A stretch of DNA of 64,000 nt from Solimicrobium silvestre (GTDB lineage: Bacteria; Pseudomonadota; Gammaproteobacteria; Burkholderiales; Burkholderiaceae_D). Both the position numbers and the translations under genes were made by a program. The notes beneath the pieces were generated by a model. It was not told where the DNA came from. It made no database searches and worked only from the letters and a program-made list of their open reading frames with translations. Location of the stretch: contig NZ_PUGF01000007.1 in NCBI RefSeq assembly GCF_002976435.1, positions 124,001 through 188,000 on the forward strand. Reading direction: 5' to 3'. Below are positions 24,807-40,802 of the stretch, one piece after another. How positions within the stretch are numbered: position 1 is the first letter of the stretch; every line of letters starts with the position of its first letter.

Positions 24807-24849
24807 AAGGCTTGCACGTAAAAATAACGGTTACCACAAGCCTTCTTTT
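24807..24849 (+). repeat. Repeated hairpin element, copy A (terminator-like)
   Basis: Stem AAGGCTTG (24807-24814) pairs with CAAGCCTT (24837-24844) around a 22-nt loop, followed by CTTTT. Bases 24809-24849 match 38146-38186 at 39 of 41 positions. Here it could end transcription of the hydrolase gene. The rest of the 24798-25184 gap holds no gene that I recognise. Confidence 0.7.
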
Positions 24850-31960: not shown

Positions 31961-32147
31961 GATTTAGTCCTTAAAATTCTGAATAAAGAACGAACATTGA
32001 GTAAATTACTGTCTAGATAAAATATTGATTTTTCAATCGCTTGAAATTATTGGCGTGCCGAAAATGCCTGTCACCCACAACCGCGAACGGCTCCTAATCA
32101 ACGGGTTACTGCCAGATGGATTATTACTGCTATGAGTACTGAGTGCC

Positions 32148-32296
32148 GAGACTGTGTAAAAACAAAAAATTTCCAACTTTTTCTGAAAAATCATGGGTAG
32201 GGAGATCATTCCCTGCGTCGAAAAAATTGAATAGAGCGTGTTTTAAGAGGCCGATTTTTTCGAGTGTAAATTAATTTTGAGTTTTTACACAGTCTC
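32148..32296. mobile_element. MITE-like element, copy 1 (149 bp)
   Basis: Perfect 16-bp terminal inverted repeats GAGACTGTGTAAAAAC (32148-32163) and GTTTTTACACAGTCTC (32281-32296) enclose an A+T-rich core without an open reading frame. TGCC stands directly on each side (32144-32147, 32297-32300), consistent with a 4-bp target duplication. The stretch 32142-32300 is identical, base for base, to 36263-36421. It is a non-autonomous element; the parent transposase is not in this window. The rest of the 31961-32355 gap contains no recognisable gene. Confidence 0.85.
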
Positions 32297-32355
32297 TGCC
32301 CATAGTTGACATAGACTGCTCTACACTGCGGTCAGTCAAACTCAACTTTCCTAGC

Positions 32356-32916
32356 TCAAAGACTATTGTCTCTGCCTGAAAGCCAAGCGGAATAATTCAG
32401 CTTTGCCCGCTCCAAATTGGATTGCATCGAATAAAACAAATCTGCGCCGCCGTCATATGGGGAATATGCGGTTCCGAGTTTAGTGTTTGCGAACATGACT
32501 GGGCCGGTCAAATCATTGGCTTTGGCCAGAATTAAATCGTCGAATCTGGCCCTCTGCCACCTGACTGGGACTGAAAAAAATTGCCATTCATCATCGTCAT
32601 ACTCATAGGTCATTGCATATACTGGCAGTATCCCATTTAAGGGAGTATCAAGGTCATCTTGCCAAATTTTGTCTGAGCCAAATTGACCAAGGAACAAAAT
32701 ACAGTCGCTGTCTTCCCCGAGAATATCGGAGGCAACTGTATTGTGACGCCGAAGCAATTCCAGTCGTTCAGACTCAGATTCAGCATAACGTTTTGATTCA
32801 GGGAGGCTATGAATACGAAGCCAACGATCGGCATATGCATCACGGCACAAGAATCCCGCTGGTGCGGCATTCGGAAAATTCTTACTCCATTCGGCAGACG
32901 CTTTTGTTTGTTTCAA
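32356..32916 (-). CDS. Hypothetical protein, 186 aa
   Basis: Soluble protein without a signal peptide or membrane helix, which I do not recognise with confidence. Visible features are RWLRIHSLPESKRYAESESE near the N-terminus, an acidic middle and WQFFSVPVRWQRARFDDLILAKAND. The pattern resembles small immunity-like families (perhaps DUF3885-like), but this is weak. The start is uncertain: the frame opens with a TTG at 32916 with no clear ribosome site. It is the first gene to the right of MITE copy 1. Confidence 0.6.
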   Translation of the reverse strand: MKQTKASAEWSKNFPNAAPAGFLCRDAYADRWLRIHSLPESKRYAESESERLELLRRHNTVASDILGEDSDCILFLGQFGSDKIWQDDLDTPLNGILPVYAMTYEYDDDEWQFFSVPVRWQRARFDDLILAKANDLTGPVMFANTKLGTAYSPYDGGADLFYSMQSNLERAKLNYSAWLSGRDNSL

Positions 32917-33006
32917 TTGGTAATCACTTTATGATAGGTCGTTGAGCCAGATGACGGCAAGGTGCGGCAAGAAGTCCTTTTAGTTCAAAACTTTACTATT
33001 CACTAT

Positions 33007-33498
33007 TTATTCAATTATCTTCCCACTTAAAGGAAATAAGCCTGAAATAATATCTTGGTTAGAAAGTGTTGATCCCACCCATACAATTGCTTTTGAAGCT
33101 CCAGCACCCAACGCCAATTCTCGCATGACGCGAAATTCAATTTGAGTAAATCCACCTTCTGGATCAACTAAGGGATGAATAATAATTATTGGATTTGGTG
33201 CAAAGAAGTTCTTTATCTCCAATTTTTTGATGAATGATTTGATTAGATACTCAGCACAAGTAAAATCTGAAAAAAGTGATCTCGGATGTGTAAATGGATT
33301 TATAACTTCAGTGTCCGGTTGACCTCTTAGTTGATAAGCATCCTCACCTATTGAAACTACCATTTTATTCACAGGCAACTTTTTATTTATTGCGATCCAT
33401 GGCGTTTCAGAAATAAATTTTCCTGATTCGGGGCTAGTTACTGTAAGTTTTTGCGCCGAAATCTGAACATAAACTGTTTGTTTAAAAAAATTGGCCAT
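33007..33498 (-). CDS. Stand-alone MreB-like N-terminal half (actin fold)
   Basis: Protein of 163 residues that aligns with the first half of MreB. VSIGEDAYQLRGQPDTEVINP matches the MreB VGHDAKQMLGRTPGN region, DFTCAEYLIKSFIKKL matches DFFVTEKMLQHFIKQV, and RVMRELALGAGASKAIVW matches RAIRESAQGAGAREVFLI. MreB is about 347 residues, so domain II (subdomains IIA/IIB) is absent. The nucleotide-phosphate loop DLGTANT is replaced by QISAQKL, so ATP binding is probably lost. It could regulate or cap MreB filaments, or be a relic; the intact frame argues against simple decay. Confidence 0.75.
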   Translation of the reverse strand: MANFFKQTVYVQISAQKLTVTSPESGKFISETPWIAINKKLPVNKMVVSIGEDAYQLRGQPDTEVINPFTHPRSLFSDFTCAEYLIKSFIKKLEIKNFFAPNPIIIIHPLVDPEGGFTQIEFRVMRELALGAGASKAIVWVGSTLSNQDIISGLFPLSGKIIE

Positions 33499-33615
33499 AA
33501 CGAACTGATTATCCTTATTATTTGACCGTCGGATCCGTGCCGAAATTTAGTCGTTACTCGTCAGAACTATTCTGAAACCCCTTAAGGCGCTCTTTGAACT
33601 GTATTGAATCCATTT

Positions 33616-34014
33616 TCATTGTTCCGGATTGGTTCCCCATCCATCGAATTCGCAGTCATGCTCGAATCCCAATTCGCACATATCCTTAGTCCATTCCAGC
33701 ACAGAGCTGTCATTCATAGGGAATTTAGCTGTCCAACCGGTAATGATTTGAATATTTTTGTCCGACGCAGAAGGTCCATGATTAACTTGATAGCTTCTGT
33801 TAAGTAACGCAGTTGCGAGCGCGTCGGCCTTTGCAGAAGTATTTGTATAAAAAAAGAACTCCAACTTAAGCTCCTTCTCAGGAGTAACGTTGTATTTGCG
33901 AAGTTGCATAAGTGTTTGCGGTGTCATCGTCAGTTGACGATTGGTAATTTCCACAAACGATTCTCTAGGAACGAATTTTTTTGGTTCATTTGAGAAGAAT
34001 TTAAATATTCCCAT
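33616..34014 (-). CDS. RraB-domain (RNase E inhibitor-like) protein
   Basis: Protein of 132 residues. The C-terminal 85 residues fit the RraB fold: KLEFFFYTNTSAKADALATALLNRSYQV, then TGWTAKFPMNDSSVLEWTKDMCELGFEHDCEFDGWGT. RraB binds RNase E in gammaproteobacteria, but many short paralogues sit in variable loci and may act as immunity or regulatory proteins. AGGACATCA precedes the ATG. It lies among other small A+T-rich genes between the two MITE copies. Confidence 0.8.
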   Translation of the reverse strand: MGIFKFFSNEPKKFVPRESFVEITNRQLTMTPQTLMQLRKYNVTPEKELKLEFFFYTNTSAKADALATALLNRSYQVNHGPSASDKNIQIITGWTAKFPMNDSSVLEWTKDMCELGFEHDCEFDGWGTNPEQ

Positions 34015-34127
34015 TGATGTCCTTAAGTATTTTGGAGAAGAGATTCGATAGGCATGAACAACTTCAACTCATATTCTGTGCACGGAGCGGGAGTTCGAAG
34101 TTCTTGTATTGTTCTACTTCTGAAATT

Positions 34128-34406
34128 TCATTCGTGAAAGACCTGATAAATATGTCGTAACTCGAATGAAACAACATCGTCGCTTTTTAACTGATGCGCA
34201 TCGCTGTGTAACAGGTTGTTGTCGACAGTACCCTGCAGTCTATCACCTTTTACATCTGTCACTTTGACCCAAAACCGCTCTATATCATCAGCGCAAATCT
34301 TGACAAGTGATCCCACGCGCACTTCCGAGAGTTCGTCCGACGACGGCGCCTCGAATGTAGCTGGATACATCTTGTGCATCTGTTGTGCGTCACTAAAAAT
34401 TGCCAT
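34128..34406 (-). CDS. Small DUF2314-like protein
   Basis: Protein of 92 residues. RVGSLVKICADDIERFWVKVTDVKGDRLQGTVDNNLLH, and later HIYQV, fit the pattern of DUF2314-type domains (FWV.V..., G.VDN.L). No known function; relatives occur next to toxin-immunity loci. The ribosome site (AGGAA, 11 nt before the ATG) is distant. Confidence 0.65.
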   Translation of the reverse strand: MAIFSDAQQMHKMYPATFEAPSSDELSEVRVGSLVKICADDIERFWVKVTDVKGDRLQGTVDNNLLHSDAHQLKSDDVVSFELRHIYQVFHE

Positions 34407-34881
34407 AGTCCGAAGATTCCTAGCAGGTCTATTAGTCTATTATCGTTGTCGGAAAATTGGTGTCTCCCGCCACCGTCTGGAATGTGCCGACACCGAGCGG
34501 ATGCCGACATACGGCACTGTCTCCTGTCCTGCGCATTGCAGGCATACGCAGCTGGCAAACAATAAATTAAAAAAATCAAAATAGCAATTTTTCTGTTCTA
34601 TGGCAGCACAACCCAGATTGCAGTCGTTGAGGTGCTTCAGTGATTGCCAGGACGGTGCCCTGAAGAGACAGTCGAAGATCTACATCACTATCATTGAACC
34701 CATTCAATTATTCATTTTTTATTTTGGAGCTTTTCAACAAAATCTTCTGTAAACGGCCGGTCAAAGTCCTACAAACCAGTTATTCATTCTGTTCATGGGG
34801 GGTAAATGCGGCAGATTAAACCGTTCTGTGGGCGCCAATCATGTAAAACTAGTTGCGTTCCGCCTTATACATCCTATTGAA
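34407..34881. other. 475-bp intergenic stretch without a recognised gene
   Basis: I see no supported gene here. On the minus strand a 19-codon open stretch (34712-34768) reads DFDRPFTEDFVEKLQNKK before a stop. It looks like the tail of a lost gene but is too short to assign. Confidence 0.4.
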
Positions 34882-36204
34882 TTAATCTTCGTAAGAATAT
34901 CTAAACTCACCTTCTGGAAGCATTAATTTCGGAATTAATTTTCCAGCCTCCACAATTACGACGTCAACAGGCATTGCATCCAAAGGATCGTTTAAACGGT
35001 ATGCATAAATTAGTCTACGACCAATAACGGGTAATAAAGCATATGGAATATCATGCGGCGTAAGAGCTGCAAGTGAGCCCATCCAAATCGGGCGTTTAGT
35101 TACGTCATCGACTGCATAAATAGGATGAATTACCTGCATATCATATGCGTCAGAGAGCGTTGCTTTACCCCCAAATCTTAAATACATATTTTGCGGTGAA
35201 ATTAAAACTGAAGGTTTTTCAATCGTCAGGTTTTTCAAAACAGCATTATAAACGTCGAATTGAAATTGGTTATCAAAATGTTGATACATCTTTGTTTGAT
35301 CAATAGTTAAGGGATTAATGCCAGTCATTCTTATCAATTGCGCGGCCATCATCGATTTATCATTTTCTTCGACCGATTTTGGAAACTTACTGGCGTGTCC
35401 ATAGCCGACATAAATAAATATTTTTGCTTTGGGGTTTTGTTTGAAAACACGGTCAACCAAATTTGCAGCCTCACCCGTTTCACGATTTTTAAAATTTTTT
35501 TCTCCCGATAATTTAGGGTCGGGCCAGTGATCATAGCTGACAAATTTCCAACCTGATTTCACGGCGTCATTCAGAAAACTCGCATACATTGTTTCAGAAC
35601 TATAATAGCCAGTATCTTTAACGACATATCCATTGGCTAATGGGAATGGAGTTGATGAATCAAATGTTTCACAGGCAAGATATTCGTAGCCAATTTTTTT
35701 TAATTCCCGTGCCAACAACATTGCAAAAACCCGATGAACTGGAACGTGATGCGCTTCATTTAATATGACCACCTGTCTGGTTTTGGCTTCCCTAGTAATC
35801 GCACTAATAGCATCTTCAATTTTTGCGGCATTAATGTCGATAAGTACATCGCTTGTATCTCTTGGTTGGCTTTTGGAATTTAATTCTCTAGATTTACTGA
35901 GCCTATCAAAATTTTTTACTGCACCGACACTATCGCCCGCAAATGATTGCATGGTTGCAAGATGATCTAATGCCGCGTCAGTATGCCAAAATTTTTCGGT
36001 TGAATCATTTATGTCGGCATTTTCTTGCTTAGTTAGATTGTTCTCAGCTTCTTTTAAATCCTTTAGCCTTGTTATTTCTGGAAGTTGTTTCTCAAGTATT
36101 GGCGGAACAGTTACGGCCGCGAAAATCGGAGAAAATGCGAGATGCGTTAAAAGTAAAAAAATTGCAAACTGAGTAGCTGGCTGACTCGTATTTTTATTTT
36201 TCAC
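34882..36204 (-). CDS. Secreted ChaN/EreA-like protein
   Basis: Protein of 440 residues with an N-terminal signal (FAIFLLLTHLAFSPIFA). A helical region (about 35-125) is followed by a domain with VVILNEAHHVPVHRVFAMLLARELKKIGYEYLACETF and VGYGHASK, the Glu/His pattern of the ChaN/EreA/TIKI-like superfamily of heme-binding or hydrolase proteins. The biochemical role is unknown. It starts with GTG, with AGGAA 8 nt upstream. Codon use is A+T-rich relative to the cbb3 genes. It is the last gene before MITE copy 2. Confidence 0.7.
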   Translation of the reverse strand: MKNKNTSQPATQFAIFLLLTHLAFSPIFAAVTVPPILEKQLPEITRLKDLKEAENNLTKQENADINDSTEKFWHTDAALDHLATMQSFAGDSVGAVKNFDRLSKSRELNSKSQPRDTSDVLIDINAAKIEDAISAITREAKTRQVVILNEAHHVPVHRVFAMLLARELKKIGYEYLACETFDSSTPFPLANGYVVKDTGYYSSETMYASFLNDAVKSGWKFVSYDHWPDPKLSGEKNFKNRETGEAANLVDRVFKQNPKAKIFIYVGYGHASKFPKSVEENDKSMMAAQLIRMTGINPLTIDQTKMYQHFDNQFQFDVYNAVLKNLTIEKPSVLISPQNMYLRFGGKATLSDAYDMQVIHPIYAVDDVTKRPIWMGSLAALTPHDIPYALLPVIGRRLIYAYRLNDPLDAMPVDVVIVEAGKLIPKLMLPEGEFRYSYED

Positions 36205-36268
36205 GTTGAAATTTCCTGATTGGTTTTAAGATTTTCAGAATTTGTCGATGCACTGACTGCTTAGTGCC

Positions 36269-36417
36269 GAGACTGTGTAAAAACAAAAAATTTCCAACTT
36301 TTTCTGAAAAATCATGGGTAGGGAGATCATTCCCTGCGTCGAAAAAATTGAATAGAGCGTGTTTTAAGAGGCCGATTTTTTCGAGTGTAAATTAATTTTG
36401 AGTTTTTACACAGTCTC
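36269..36417. mobile_element. MITE-like element, copy 2 (149 bp)
   Basis: Identical and in the same orientation to copy 1 at 32148-32296, with the same 16-bp terminal inverted repeats and TGCC on both sides (36265-36268, 36418-36421). The two copies bracket 3.97 kb containing five minus-strand genes. The remainder of the 36205-36726 gap is A+T-rich and without a recognised gene. Confidence 0.85.
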
Positions 36418-36726
36418 TGCCAGGTGCAGTCACCCTAAAACCGGAACGACTCCTTACCTAACATTCCAGCCCTTCATCAAGCGAACACGGTAATTTAAAA
36501 ATTAATAAATAGCAACTTTATTATCTCTAAATTCCACATTACCCACAACTCTCTATCTGCAAATTAATATTGATACCTACCTATGTATTTAAATCAAGGG
36601 TGACATATTTGGAATGCGAATCACGGGCTTTTTTTCAAATGCCAAAGGGGTTTTTTTTGATGCAAATATGCATCTGTTGCCATAGCCGCTGGGGTTTCAA
36701 CCCAGCGTTTAAAAATAGCATTTGAG

Positions 36727-38079
36727 CTAAAAATATTCTGAGTGCTGAGTTGTCAATAAATCTTCATACTGACTCACTGCTTTCAAATTGGTGAATTCCG
36801 GGGCAATTTGACGACCAATATCCCAACATTGCCACGCGTGCGCAGTGTCAAATCGCATATAGAACAAATCACCCAAGTCCTTGTAGACACCAGCGATATA
36901 GGGATTAGTTTGAAGGACCTCTGCAAACAGCGCTTTGGCTGCATCTGAGTCGCCGAGTTTCAAGCGGTCATTGGCTTCAAATATCTTAAGTATATAGGCT
37001 TTATTGGGTGCATTTAAGCGAAGATTCACAAGAGTAGTAATCGCATCGGGCATCGCTTCCTTCGTACTCGCTCCGAGAGCGTGCGTTAAATTTTGAACTG
37101 AAGAGTCCAAACGTATTTTTGCCAATTGATCTGGTGTAAATGGAGGTATCTGTTGCCCGGTCGTTAAACTAAATTCAAATACCGCGAGCATTGCGTCCAA
37201 CAATTTCCCGTCTCGAATATCGCTGGCCTGCTGAGTCAGAATGCCATTTTTTGCGTGCTCCAACTTCGCAGCGGTTATGCCTCTATCTTGGCCGAGGATT
37301 TGATCCAATTTATCAGACGACTTGGCAGCCTGTCTCCTTGAAAAGGCACTCAGATCATAGGCAACATCATCAATTTGATGAGCCGAATTAACTACAATGG
37401 TGCATGTAGTAGTTCCCCAAAATTCATTGAATGTTAAAACTATTTTGTTTGGAATCACACCAGACGCAGCGAGTCTCTTTAAAATTTGCGGGTGTCCGCC
37501 AAGTTTGTATCGAAGAAAATTTACAAATCGGGAGGAATCCTCAGCACTAACTTTAACGCCAGCTTTACTCCACCGTGCCAGCTCTCGACCTTCTATCGAA
37601 AACTCTAAATCATCACCAACATCTTTTTCTTCAACATGCCTCTGTGTCTGTGATTGCACTGCAAACAAATGTTCGTTATCAATTGTGCGGTGCGTATCAA
37701 CATCGATTTTCGCCGCAGCTAACCTCTTATTGAGGTTTTCACGATTTTGAAATTCTAAATCCCGAAAACCGACAGTGTCGTAAATCGAATAATCCATGTA
37801 AGTCTTGGTGGCATCGTCAAGAGTAAACCGCCTGCGAGTTTTAAAATCAAATATCTTGATTTCATTGGCTGATCTCATGGACATGTATCCACTATCCAGC
37901 GTGACGTCCAATGATTCTTGGGTATCAGCTGGAGTTTTAGAGTCTGGTTTGTTTTTTATGTTCTGCGTTTTAATAGTGGCATTTAGATTAACTGCAGCAA
38001 TTGTGTTTTGACAAATTAGGCAACTGACGGCGCACAAAACGCCAACAAGCAAATTGGGTTTGAAAGAAAATAATTTCAT
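36727..38079 (-). CDS. Secreted protein of unknown function with a TPR-like C-terminus
   Basis: Protein of 450 residues with a signal peptide (LLVGVLCAVSCLICQNTIA). The N-terminal part has IKIFDFKTRRRFTLDDATKTYMDYS, resembling periplasmic beta-rich proteins that bind lipids or metals. The C-terminal 100 residues are helical with TPR-like repeats (SDAAKALFAEVLQTNPYIAGVYKDLGDLFYMRFD). I do not recognise a family. Its base composition and secretion match the gene at 34882, suggesting joint acquisition, but it lies outside the MITE pair. Confidence 0.65.
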   Translation of the reverse strand: MKLFSFKPNLLVGVLCAVSCLICQNTIAAVNLNATIKTQNIKNKPDSKTPADTQESLDVTLDSGYMSMRSANEIKIFDFKTRRRFTLDDATKTYMDYSIYDTVGFRDLEFQNRENLNKRLAAAKIDVDTHRTIDNEHLFAVQSQTQRHVEEKDVGDDLEFSIEGRELARWSKAGVKVSAEDSSRFVNFLRYKLGGHPQILKRLAASGVIPNKIVLTFNEFWGTTTCTIVVNSAHQIDDVAYDLSAFSRRQAAKSSDKLDQILGQDRGITAAKLEHAKNGILTQQASDIRDGKLLDAMLAVFEFSLTTGQQIPPFTPDQLAKIRLDSSVQNLTHALGASTKEAMPDAITTLVNLRLNAPNKAYILKIFEANDRLKLGDSDAAKALFAEVLQTNPYIAGVYKDLGDLFYMRFDTAHAWQCWDIGRQIAPEFTNLKAVSQYEDLLTTQHSEYF

Positions 38080-38145: not shown

Positions 38146-38186
38146 GGCTTGCACGTAAAAATAACGGCTACCATAAGCCTTCTTTT
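38146..38186 (+). repeat. Repeated hairpin element, copy B
   Basis: This sequence matches 24809-24849 at 39 of 41 positions, including the T-run. Here no plus-strand gene precedes it, so it does not serve as a terminator for a neighbour; one stem pair is lost (GGCTT/AAGCC remains). This supports a dispersed repeat rather than a local terminator. Confidence 0.65.
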
Positions 38187-39722: not shown

Positions 39723-40802
39723 TTAGCCAGGCTGTGTTCGCCACGGAATACGCACCGTCACTTGCGCACCTCCACCGGGGAGATTTGTCATATCGAATGC
39801 GTGGCGATTTTGGTACATCAATTGCAACCGCGTAGCGGTATTTCGAGTGCCGATTCCACGTTTGGAATTGCCGTTAATACCGCACCCATTGTCAATGACA
39901 TCCAAAATCAGCCATTCATCGTCATGATGGGCACGTATCGTTATGGTGGCCGAACGTGCAAGGTTAGCCACTCCATGTTTAACAGCGTTTTCTACCAGCG
40001 GCTGCAACAGAAAGGCCGGCACCAGTGCGTCCATGCAATCGAATGGCACGTCTCTTTGTATAGTCAATCGATCCTGAAATCTGATCGCTTCAATACTTAA
40101 ATAGGTATCTGTAAATGCCATTTCTTGGCGCAGACTGATTTCATTGGCTGATCCTGAATCAAGGGTCATGCGCAGCAAGTCCGCCAGGCGCGTCAACATT
40201 TTATCCGCAGCCTCCTGATCACTGTGAATCAGAGCTGCAATGGAATTCAGCGTGTTGAACAGAAAATGCGGCTGGAGCTGCATTTGCAGCGCCCGATTTT
40301 GCGCGATAGCTAAACGGCTTTGAAGTTGCGCAGCCTCCAGTTCCTGTTTTCGGGAAAGCCCAAGAATGCGGGCTCCGTGATATGCGCCAAGGACGGCCCA
40401 CATTAACAGCAGATTGATATGGAAATACATCGAAAAAAAACCGTAATAGTTACTTAACGGATCCGCCAGCACCTTTTGTTGCATTTCCGGCGGCGAAAAC
40501 ACGATGACCAACAGCCAGACAAACCAAAGCGACACCATAGAAATGACAACGCTGCCTGTTAAATGAATGACCCAATTGCGACAATTAGTCCAATTCAGAC
40601 GCGCCAGCGGCCAGCGTCGCGCCATTGCCAGCACCACCAGACCTGCGCATCCCCATATCAGGTTCTGCAACAGGTTCATCGGGATCAATACATCAAAGAA
40701 ATGTTCCTTGGCGTGGCGCATAAAATCCATGGTCGCCATATAGACCGAGAACAGCGCCCAAATTCCCCAATAGAATAGCCAGAAACGCAGACGGGAATTC
40801 AT
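39723..40802 (-). CDS. LytS/YehU-type sensor histidine kinase
   Basis: Sensor kinase of 359 residues with four N-terminal membrane helices (about 8-140), then a His_kinase domain with phospho-acceptor His in LQPHFLFNTLNSIAALI and an HATPase domain (VENAVKHG; VIDNGCGINGNSKRGIGTRN). It pairs with the LytTR regulator downstream. The signal is unknown. It is divergent from the small secreted protein gene at 41311, a possible target. Confidence 0.93.
   Translation of the reverse strand: MNSRLRFWLFYWGIWALFSVYMATMDFMRHAKEHFFDVLIPMNLLQNLIWGCAGLVVLAMARRWPLARLNWTNCRNWVIHLTGSVVISMVSLWFVWLLVIVFSPPEMQQKVLADPLSNYYGFFSMYFHINLLLMWAVLGAYHGARILGLSRKQELEAAQLQSRLAIAQNRALQMQLQPHFLFNTLNSIAALIHSDQEAADKMLTRLADLLRMTLDSGSANEISLRQEMAFTDTYLSIEAIRFQDRLTIQRDVPFDCMDALVPAFLLQPLVENAVKHGVANLARSATITIRAHHDDEWLILDVIDNGCGINGNSKRGIGTRNTATRLQLMYQNRHAFDMTNLPGGGAQVTVRIPWRTQPG

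Follow-up and report, generated by a model that had tools for sequence, protein, structure and literature searches.

Integrons and the clusters of attC sites lacking integron-integrases (CALINs) carry small accessory genes arrayed on the same strand and separated by a recurring oriented site, and the IS1111-attC elements are transposable elements specialised on cassette-junction sites. ISPse1 of Paracoccus, an insertion sequence (IS) of the IS1182 family, has inverted repeats matching at 16 of 16 positions and a direct repeat (DR) of 4 bp (PMC3281130), and among the ISMac2-related miniature inverted-repeat transposable elements (MITEs) of Methanosarcina one, of 160 bp, has a 4-bp DR and a second, of 169 bp, a DR of 0 (PMC3852290). 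IS1272 and TnSha1 are described as using stem-loop targets, which are wholly or partly deleted, without target duplication, and IS1272 is reported to lack sequence specificity (PMC5678879, PMC4923244). Here we analysed a window of 64,000 nucleotides of Solimicrobium silvestre (contig NZ_PUGF01000007.1, positions 124,001 to 188,000 of the forward strand), in which two identical 149-bp MITEs bracket a five-gene island. It is probable (roughly 0.8) that the two MITEs each filled one junction site of a cassette-like array and are not the paired ends of a five-gene transposon. The host belongs to a family that we take to be the Oxalobacteraceae. C-numbers below denote contigs of the host assembly (G000) unless Sapientia is stated, and L-numbers the stretches read from them; the Sapientia genome (G001) belongs to the same GTDB genus as the host, and its array contig is also numbered C33. 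The DNA sampled comprised 897 kb of the 5.24 Mb of the host and 76 kb of Sapientia, and gene presence was compared across four congeners.

Two identical MITEs and their IS1182-type relatives

The stretches 32142–32300 and 36263–36421 are identical over 159 bp and lie in direct orientation. The element proper is 149 bp long (copy 1, 32148–32296; copy 2, 36269–36417; both given on the plus strand) and has perfect 16-bp terminal inverted repeats (TIRs) matching at 16/16 positions (GAGACTGTGTAAAAAC), with TGCC directly before and directly after each copy (32144–32147 and 32297–32300 for copy 1, 36265–36268 and 36418–36421 for copy 2). The end sequence is found in the window as four exact matches and one with three mismatches, where 0.40 matches with up to three mismatches would be expected by chance, so that its occurrence is far from chance. 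Between the two copies lie five open reading frames (ORFs), all on the minus strand. A preliminary description of this DNA, made from the sequence alone, had reported two identical direct elements with perfect 16-bp TIRs and TGCC on both sides, and we confirm this. Its view of them as MITE-like also holds, the units being shorter than 300 bp, devoid of a transposase gene and multicopy, and its proposals of recent insertion and of a target preference for TGCC are supported.

Searching the host assembly with the MITE returned 13 rows, of which three were TIR matches, on the opposite strand, to elements that had been counted before; the genome thus holds eight near-full-length copies, one degraded copy (82% identity) and one end remnant, that is, nine copies plus a remnant. 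Four of the near-full-length copies are identical, since those at C18:94683 and C33:39312 also match the window pair at 149/149 positions, while three are 98.7% and one is 88.6% identical. TGCC flanks both ends, in the same orientation, in 8/8 near-full-length copies. Given that TGCC is found at all eight copies and that four of them are identical, neither property argues for a composite unit, and the reading of TGCC as evidence peculiar to a duplicated unit was rejected because the motif is family-wide. No match to the MITE sequence was found in a search of plasmid records.

A search of the genome with the end pattern, allowing up to two mismatches, gave 39 matches; two-mismatch matches without a neighbouring IS were left out of the count of IS ends. 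Near-identical IS ends are present on C9 and at the contig ends of C12, C16, C18, C27, C31, C35, C37, C48 and C53; the assembly seems to break there at a collapsed repeat. The complete copy on C9 (L057:896–2597) encodes a transposase of the IS1182 family (NF033551, 4e-109), and 14 out of 14 IS1182-type ends examined (two of the C9 copy and 12 at contig ends) have TGCC/GGCA flanks in fixed orientation. The exact 16-bp MITE end (16/16) occurs on an IS1182-type remnant at C16:67179–67510, which is 85% identical over 332 bp to the second of two IS1182 elements in Sapientia, and the MITE ends share 14–15 of 16 positions with the other IS ends compared. Both Sapientia elements have open transposase frames of 476 aa, and NZ_SMYL01000003.1 (Sapientia aquatica SA-152) carries the same IS ends. 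Relatives of the Sapientia IS at 60–80% are present on 136 plasmid records, and those listed are annotated as IS1182 or as transposase. With a pattern that itself required TGCC, TGCC-preceded ends were found in 12 stretches, among them some from other proteobacteria, including Paracoccus, Pseudorhodobacter, Rhodoferax, Pseudomonas guineae and Sphingomonas. The MITEs share with IS of the family both their ends and the length and sequence of the target repeat. Judged by these ends and flanks, the two 149-bp units are assigned to IS1182-family MITEs with a fixed 4-bp target, not to IS256, and they would presumably be mobilised by an IS1182-family transposase. In P. guineae, a MITE-like unit of 159 bp (L083:3155–3313) was also seen, whose ends are nearly identical and of IS1182 type; it is bordered by TGCC on one side and by GGCC on the other.

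The insertion target and the gene arrays

Element flanks were aligned on TGCC (28 left and 16 right flanks, the degraded copy on C6 being omitted) and compared with a background of 10,257 TGCC sites. The left flanks comprised 17 of a genus set, one of them from Sapientia, and 11 from the wider proteobacterial end search, in which Sapientia is represented once again. G was found at −10 in 25 left flanks (in 17/17 of the genus set), C at −8 in 22, G at −6 in 23 and G at −1 in 22, while the right flanks had C at +10 in 14 and A at +11 in 12. The target consensus is an imperfect dyad, roughly TGnCnGC-WnnG-TGCC-SnnW-GCnGnCA. Across 11 two-sided sites, including that of a different MITE-like element in C12, 51 of 110 positions were complementary in the symmetric register 0, compared with 21–34 of 110 at shifts 1–4. 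There are native sites with a single central TGCC; in one of them, Sapientia C33:41202, the right half matches the flank of the C9 IS at 86% identity over 84 bp. A loose palindrome search proved too unspecific to be of use (617.5 pairs versus 116.5 in the control with two mismatches, 9 versus 1 with one mismatch). Rfam gave no match in five array loci at gathering thresholds and none at E 0.1 in 31.5–37.0 kb of the window, and no description of this junction site was found in open-licence papers, which were represented mostly by titles and the beginnings of abstracts.

A matrix built from the MITE/IS flanks (the flank-trained matrix, whose training set includes the sites of both window MITEs) was applied to the 897 kb of host DNA. 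Scores of at least 8 were reached by 39 of 10,260 TGCC sites as against 4 of 11,672 control tetramers; 12 of the 39 were flagged as element-occupied and are training sites. Three of the 39 lie inside ORFs, compared with 1,321 of 1,500 random TGCC. The sites cluster between genes in C18, C27, C33 and C48 and in the island of the window. When the threshold was lowered to 6, 49 sites were obtained, of which nine inside ORFs were excluded; for the remaining 40, 60 of 74 neighbouring ORFs were on the expected strand, and both neighbours were so at 22 of 34 sites, counts that rest on crude ORF calls and on sites that are non-independent within one array. Protein families of the host arrays include SUKH, GNAT, DUF3885 and DUF4265.

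Applied to the 76 kb of Sapientia, the flank-trained matrix gave 30 sites scoring at least 6 on one strand and none on the other, and 29 of the 30 fall within 26.3–51.0 kb, a region of 24.6 kb of small genes; the 30 hits include three element-occupied sites and one overlapping pair, and, as just one training element comes from this DNA, the result hardly depends on the training set. A second matrix, trained on 22 of the Sapientia array sites (the Sapientia-trained matrix), also gave 30 hits there, with a median gap of 595 bp. The median distance of a site is 38.5 bp to the stop codon before it and 93 bp to the start codon after it. In a reversed-sequence control at a threshold of 12, the second matrix gave 4 hits versus 29 in Sapientia and 17 versus 61 in the host sample, so that single hits outside the arrays are not all real. 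The Sapientia array (C33:26.3–51.0 kb, L162 and L163) is interrupted by the two IS1182 elements, and a further transposase region near 29.8–31.3 kb was noted by eye. Four of nine Sapientia array proteins scanned match Pfam families (Tdi1-like, ankyrin, glyoxalase and SseB). By DNA comparison, no gene was found in common between the host sample and the Sapientia array, the shared DNA being confined to IS, junction and repeat sequence. No recombinase was recognised beside the arrays, and no junction site was found within the 8–9 kb read around two Xer-like recombinases (on C3 and C6, judged by eye from their gene context) and the integrase on C45. The sole recombinase-like ORF noticed in the 76 kb of Sapientia, by eye and from its first residues, is at 1.7–2.8 kb, about 24 kb from the array.

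The five-gene island and its paralogous locus

Within the island, the Sapientia-trained matrix detected sites at 32963, 34485, 34656 and 36265, all oriented as expected where genes are on the minus strand. The last of these is the left TGCC of MITE copy 2, which scores 17.0 with this matrix and 16.0, as a training site, with the flank-trained one; the site of MITE copy 1 was detected only by the flank-trained matrix, for which it is a training site (score 9.7). An unoccupied junction site upstream of the gene for a 92-aa protein (34471–34502, plus strand) scores 16.2 with the flank-trained and 22.9 with the Sapientia-trained matrix, and an unoccupied junction-like site with the core TGCG (32949–32980, plus strand; 15.6 with the Sapientia-trained matrix) lies upstream of the DUF3885 gene. 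The site at 34471–34502 is at one end of the R repeat (34485–34659, plus strand), a dispersed unit of 175 bp with TGCC at either end, and the opposite end of this repeat carries another junction-like site (34642–34673, plus strand), which scores 10.2 and 11.1 with the two matrices, respectively. IS1182 ends sit at the TGCC of the R repeat in C48 and C53. The R repeat has no obvious terminal inverted repeats; besides four other full-length copies (in C27, C18, C48 and C53), the 897-kb sample contains a 154-bp copy and three shorter fragments, and a match of 91% over 155 bp was seen in G002.

The DUF3885 gene (32356–32916, minus strand; PF13021, 9.1e-34) has a copy between two junction sites in C33 that is 78% identical over 608 bp. 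The ends of the C33 block are 24 and 66 bp from a site, and in the window the corresponding block is separated by 36 bp from the site at 32963 and by 23 bp from the TGCC on the right of MITE copy 1. The other four genes, also on the minus strand, are an MreB-like or YjaA-like gene (33007–33498; PF06723, 3.1e-9; NF041448, 3.2e-12, below its cut-off), an RraB-family gene (33616–34014; PF06877, 1.8e-9), the 92-aa gene (34128–34406; no family match) and a 440-aa gene (34882–36204), which has no family match and has a 53% paralogue at C12:43382–44659.

The outer flanks of the island recur together on C12. The left flank, RepL (32098–32147, plus strand), is repeated at C12:46486–46538 (89% over 53 bp) and the right flank, RepR (36426–36519, plus strand), at C12:47986–48079 (90% over 94 bp), in the same order and about 1.45 kb apart, with a DUF4265 gene between them. 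At C12 the RepL junction holds no element, and the RepR junction holds a different MITE-like element of 218 bp (L157:9757–9974), which lies between TGCCs, has the inverted ends GATTTTGTTGAAAAACTC and is the sole copy in the 897-kb sample. RepL was found nowhere else in this sample at E 1e-3, while weaker relatives of RepR are present. The C12 locus is a paralogue, not an allele, of the window locus. Since the two outer flanks stand at two separate junctions there, each window MITE can be explained as filling one of them. A 450-aa gene to the right of the island was considered as a paralogue of a 422-aa gene on C12, and this was rejected. In comparisons of synteny, NnrU is present in one of the four congeners (G003), in a different context, and the kinase at 39723 has a close match only in a genome of another genus (G013, 59%). 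A 41-bp direct repeat (24809–24849 and 38146–38186), 95% identical, was also seen, with its copies 13.3 kb apart.

Explanations weighed and comparison with known systems

The observed ends, TIRs, identity and orientation of the copies, their TGCC flanks, the junction site with its consensus and its unoccupied representatives, and the paralogous locus on C12 are consistent with the following course of events. An IS1182-family transposase, acting in trans, would bind the 16-bp MITE ends, and each MITE would have entered singly, at the TGCC within a near dyad-symmetric junction site that set its orientation; the central TGCC would have been duplicated, leaving one on each side. The junction sites would separate single genes in same-strand, cassette-like arrays of the genus, and the five-gene island would represent a small part of one such array, its two outer junctions being occupied by the MITEs. 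We infer the action of the transposase and the duplication of TGCC because the IS copies have the same flanks and there are native sites with a single central TGCC. The array genes may likewise be exchangeable, now or in the past.

Several observations weigh against this reading. The degraded MITE copy on C6 has TGCC at one end only and in the opposite orientation, and an end-like match at C15:74180, a single end, has no TGCC. The IS on C9 is the sole complete readable one here, and its transposase is split over two frames; at one further Sapientia end, TGCC is separated from the end by an additional C. The interior of the MITE has no match in the four IS sequences compared, so that its parentage is deduced from the ends. 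At the target, flanks pair only slightly better with their own partners than with swapped ones in a fixed register (p 0.11), a free-register palindrome test gave 4.8 for own and 4.37 for swapped partners (p 0.17), and covariation between the half-sites is absent from the 22 native Sapientia sites, where 55.2% of cells are paired compared with 58.5% after shuffling. A simple hairpin target was rejected on these pairing tests. The consensus is symmetric, and because own-versus-swapped pairing is weak and covariation is absent, we read the site as two inverted half-sites and not as an established hairpin. Pairing across each window MITE is 7/10, against 5/10 for each of the outer and inner cross-pairings, and 5 of 90 swapped pairs reach 7; this points to single insertion weakly, because native sites do not covary. 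In the empty RepL site at C12, another TGCC precedes the junction TGCC by 7 bp on its upstream side, and the comparison is therefore not a clean single-TGCC one. Finally, among the four congeners, in which the locus is not conserved, neither an allele without one or both MITEs nor an empty allele was found.

Two alternatives concern the elements themselves, and both had been raised by the preliminary description. IS256 elements have target repeats of 8–9 bp. The ends had seemed to resemble those of IS256, and the 4-bp repeat had been taken as a misfit; there is no match to the IS256-type transposase domain PF00872 in the host assembly, IS1182 elements are present whose ends are nearly those of the MITEs and whose flanks are likewise TGCC, and the repeats are 4-bp TGCC. 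The chance that the MITEs derive from IS256 is close to nil, and a 4-bp DR is on record for the IS1182 family in ISPse1 (PMC3281130). As a composite transposon, the five genes would have been moved, or could be moved, as a block by a transposase acting on the outer MITE ends. The identical direct copies with cognate ends and TGCC outside would suit such a unit, as would the 440-aa gene, which is found in 0/4 congeners, and composites of the IS1182-family element IS1272 are documented in staphylococci as TnSha1/2 (PMC4923244). However, the identity of the MITEs and their TGCC flanks are genome-wide, the outer flanks belong at C12 to two separate junctions, the island has junction sites of its own, and the 897 kb contain no second copy of the block but just single-gene and repeat matches. 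The low G+C content noted earlier for the island is present but is not confined to it: the zone runs past the right MITE, 1-kb windows over 36.0–38.0 kb, which is mostly beyond the island, also having 0.39–0.42, and the next gene outside (36727–38079) is equally absent from 4/4 congeners. Movement as a composite transposon is very unlikely in our judgement, and neither it nor a duplicated unit is supported. Loss of the island through recombination of the two MITEs, also raised by the preliminary description, is conceivable in principle.

What the junction sites are is a separate question from how each MITE came to fill one. They may be mere dispersed intergenic repeats, such as 3′-end or terminator-like sequences, that are preferred by IS1182, with the arrays being ordinary accessory regions without cassette mobility. 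This has somewhat less than an even chance: the sites are mostly intergenic, IS1272 is known to target hairpins or terminators (PMC4923244, PMC5678879), the arrays of the two genomes have no gene in common by DNA comparison, and the only recombinase-like ORF noticed in Sapientia is distant from the array. It accords less well with arrays of near-regular spacing, one site per gene and all on a single strand (30/30, median gap 595 bp), with the absence of covariation in favour of a hairpin, or with the DUF3885 unit, which has a site on either side at both of its genomic locations. The arrays could instead be an aberrant or decayed, CALIN-like integron with divergent attC sites. A remnant of an integrase N-terminus (NF011946, 3.5e-8; 34 matched residues) at L155:2758–3030, equal to C27:56757–57029, stops just before a junction site, beyond which two small genes, one of them SUKH, and an attI-like GTTAGAC box are laid out as in an integron, and the SUKH, GNAT, Tdi1-like and glyoxalase families resemble the contents of cassettes. 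Yet a regular expression for the RYYYAAC…GTTRRRY box pair, used in place of a covariance model, matched at 0/22 Sapientia junctions, with GTTRRRY alone at 5/22 and four pairs per strand in the whole array; in the host it found one pair in L156, none in L155, L058 and L059, and one per strand in 32001–36800 of the window. The sites, moreover, are about 30 bp long with the upstream stop codon a median of 38.5 bp away, and no match to the integron-integrase model in the genome reaches its cut-off, the best being TIGR02249 with 80 bits versus 265. An integron origin is improbable. A cassette system other than an integron is also doubtful, though less so: it would consist of one-strand arrays of single genes, a dyad-type site of about 30 bp (TGnCnGC…GGCA…GCnGnCA) and a putative recombinase, with IS1182 and the MITEs as specialised parasites of the site, and the island, as a few of these cassettes in a row, would have been acquired and exchanged through its junctions and not through the MITEs.

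The elements draw attention to an oriented site that recurs between individual accessory genes, at junctions where no attC box pairs were found. If the array genes are exchangeable, they would form a gene-cassette platform outside integrons, and the elements could be used to look for it in other proteobacteria. The arrays resemble those of integrons and CALINs in their small accessory genes on the same strand and in the recurring oriented site; they differ from integrons in having sites of about 30 bp with TGCC at the centre and no attC box pairs, and in that an integrase gene was seen as a remnant only. The MITEs are like ISPse1 in their 16/16 inverted repeats and 4-bp repeat and like the Methanosarcina MITE in its 4-bp DR, but unlike both in having TGCC at all eight copies, a fixed orientation and a recurring gene-junction target. 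They are like IS1272 and TnSha1/TnSha2 in that an IS1182-family element prefers dyad-symmetric targets, whereas here, unlike for IS1272, each copy is bordered by TGCC repeats and its target conforms to a consensus sequence. Insertion of an IS1182-family element at TGCC in a defined junction sequence would differ from the structure-only targeting of IS1272 without duplication. Like the IS1111-attC elements, the MITEs and their IS relatives are transposable elements specialised on junction sites; unlike them, they are of IS1182 type, with TIRs, a 4-bp target repeat and a preference for sites of a non-attC kind.

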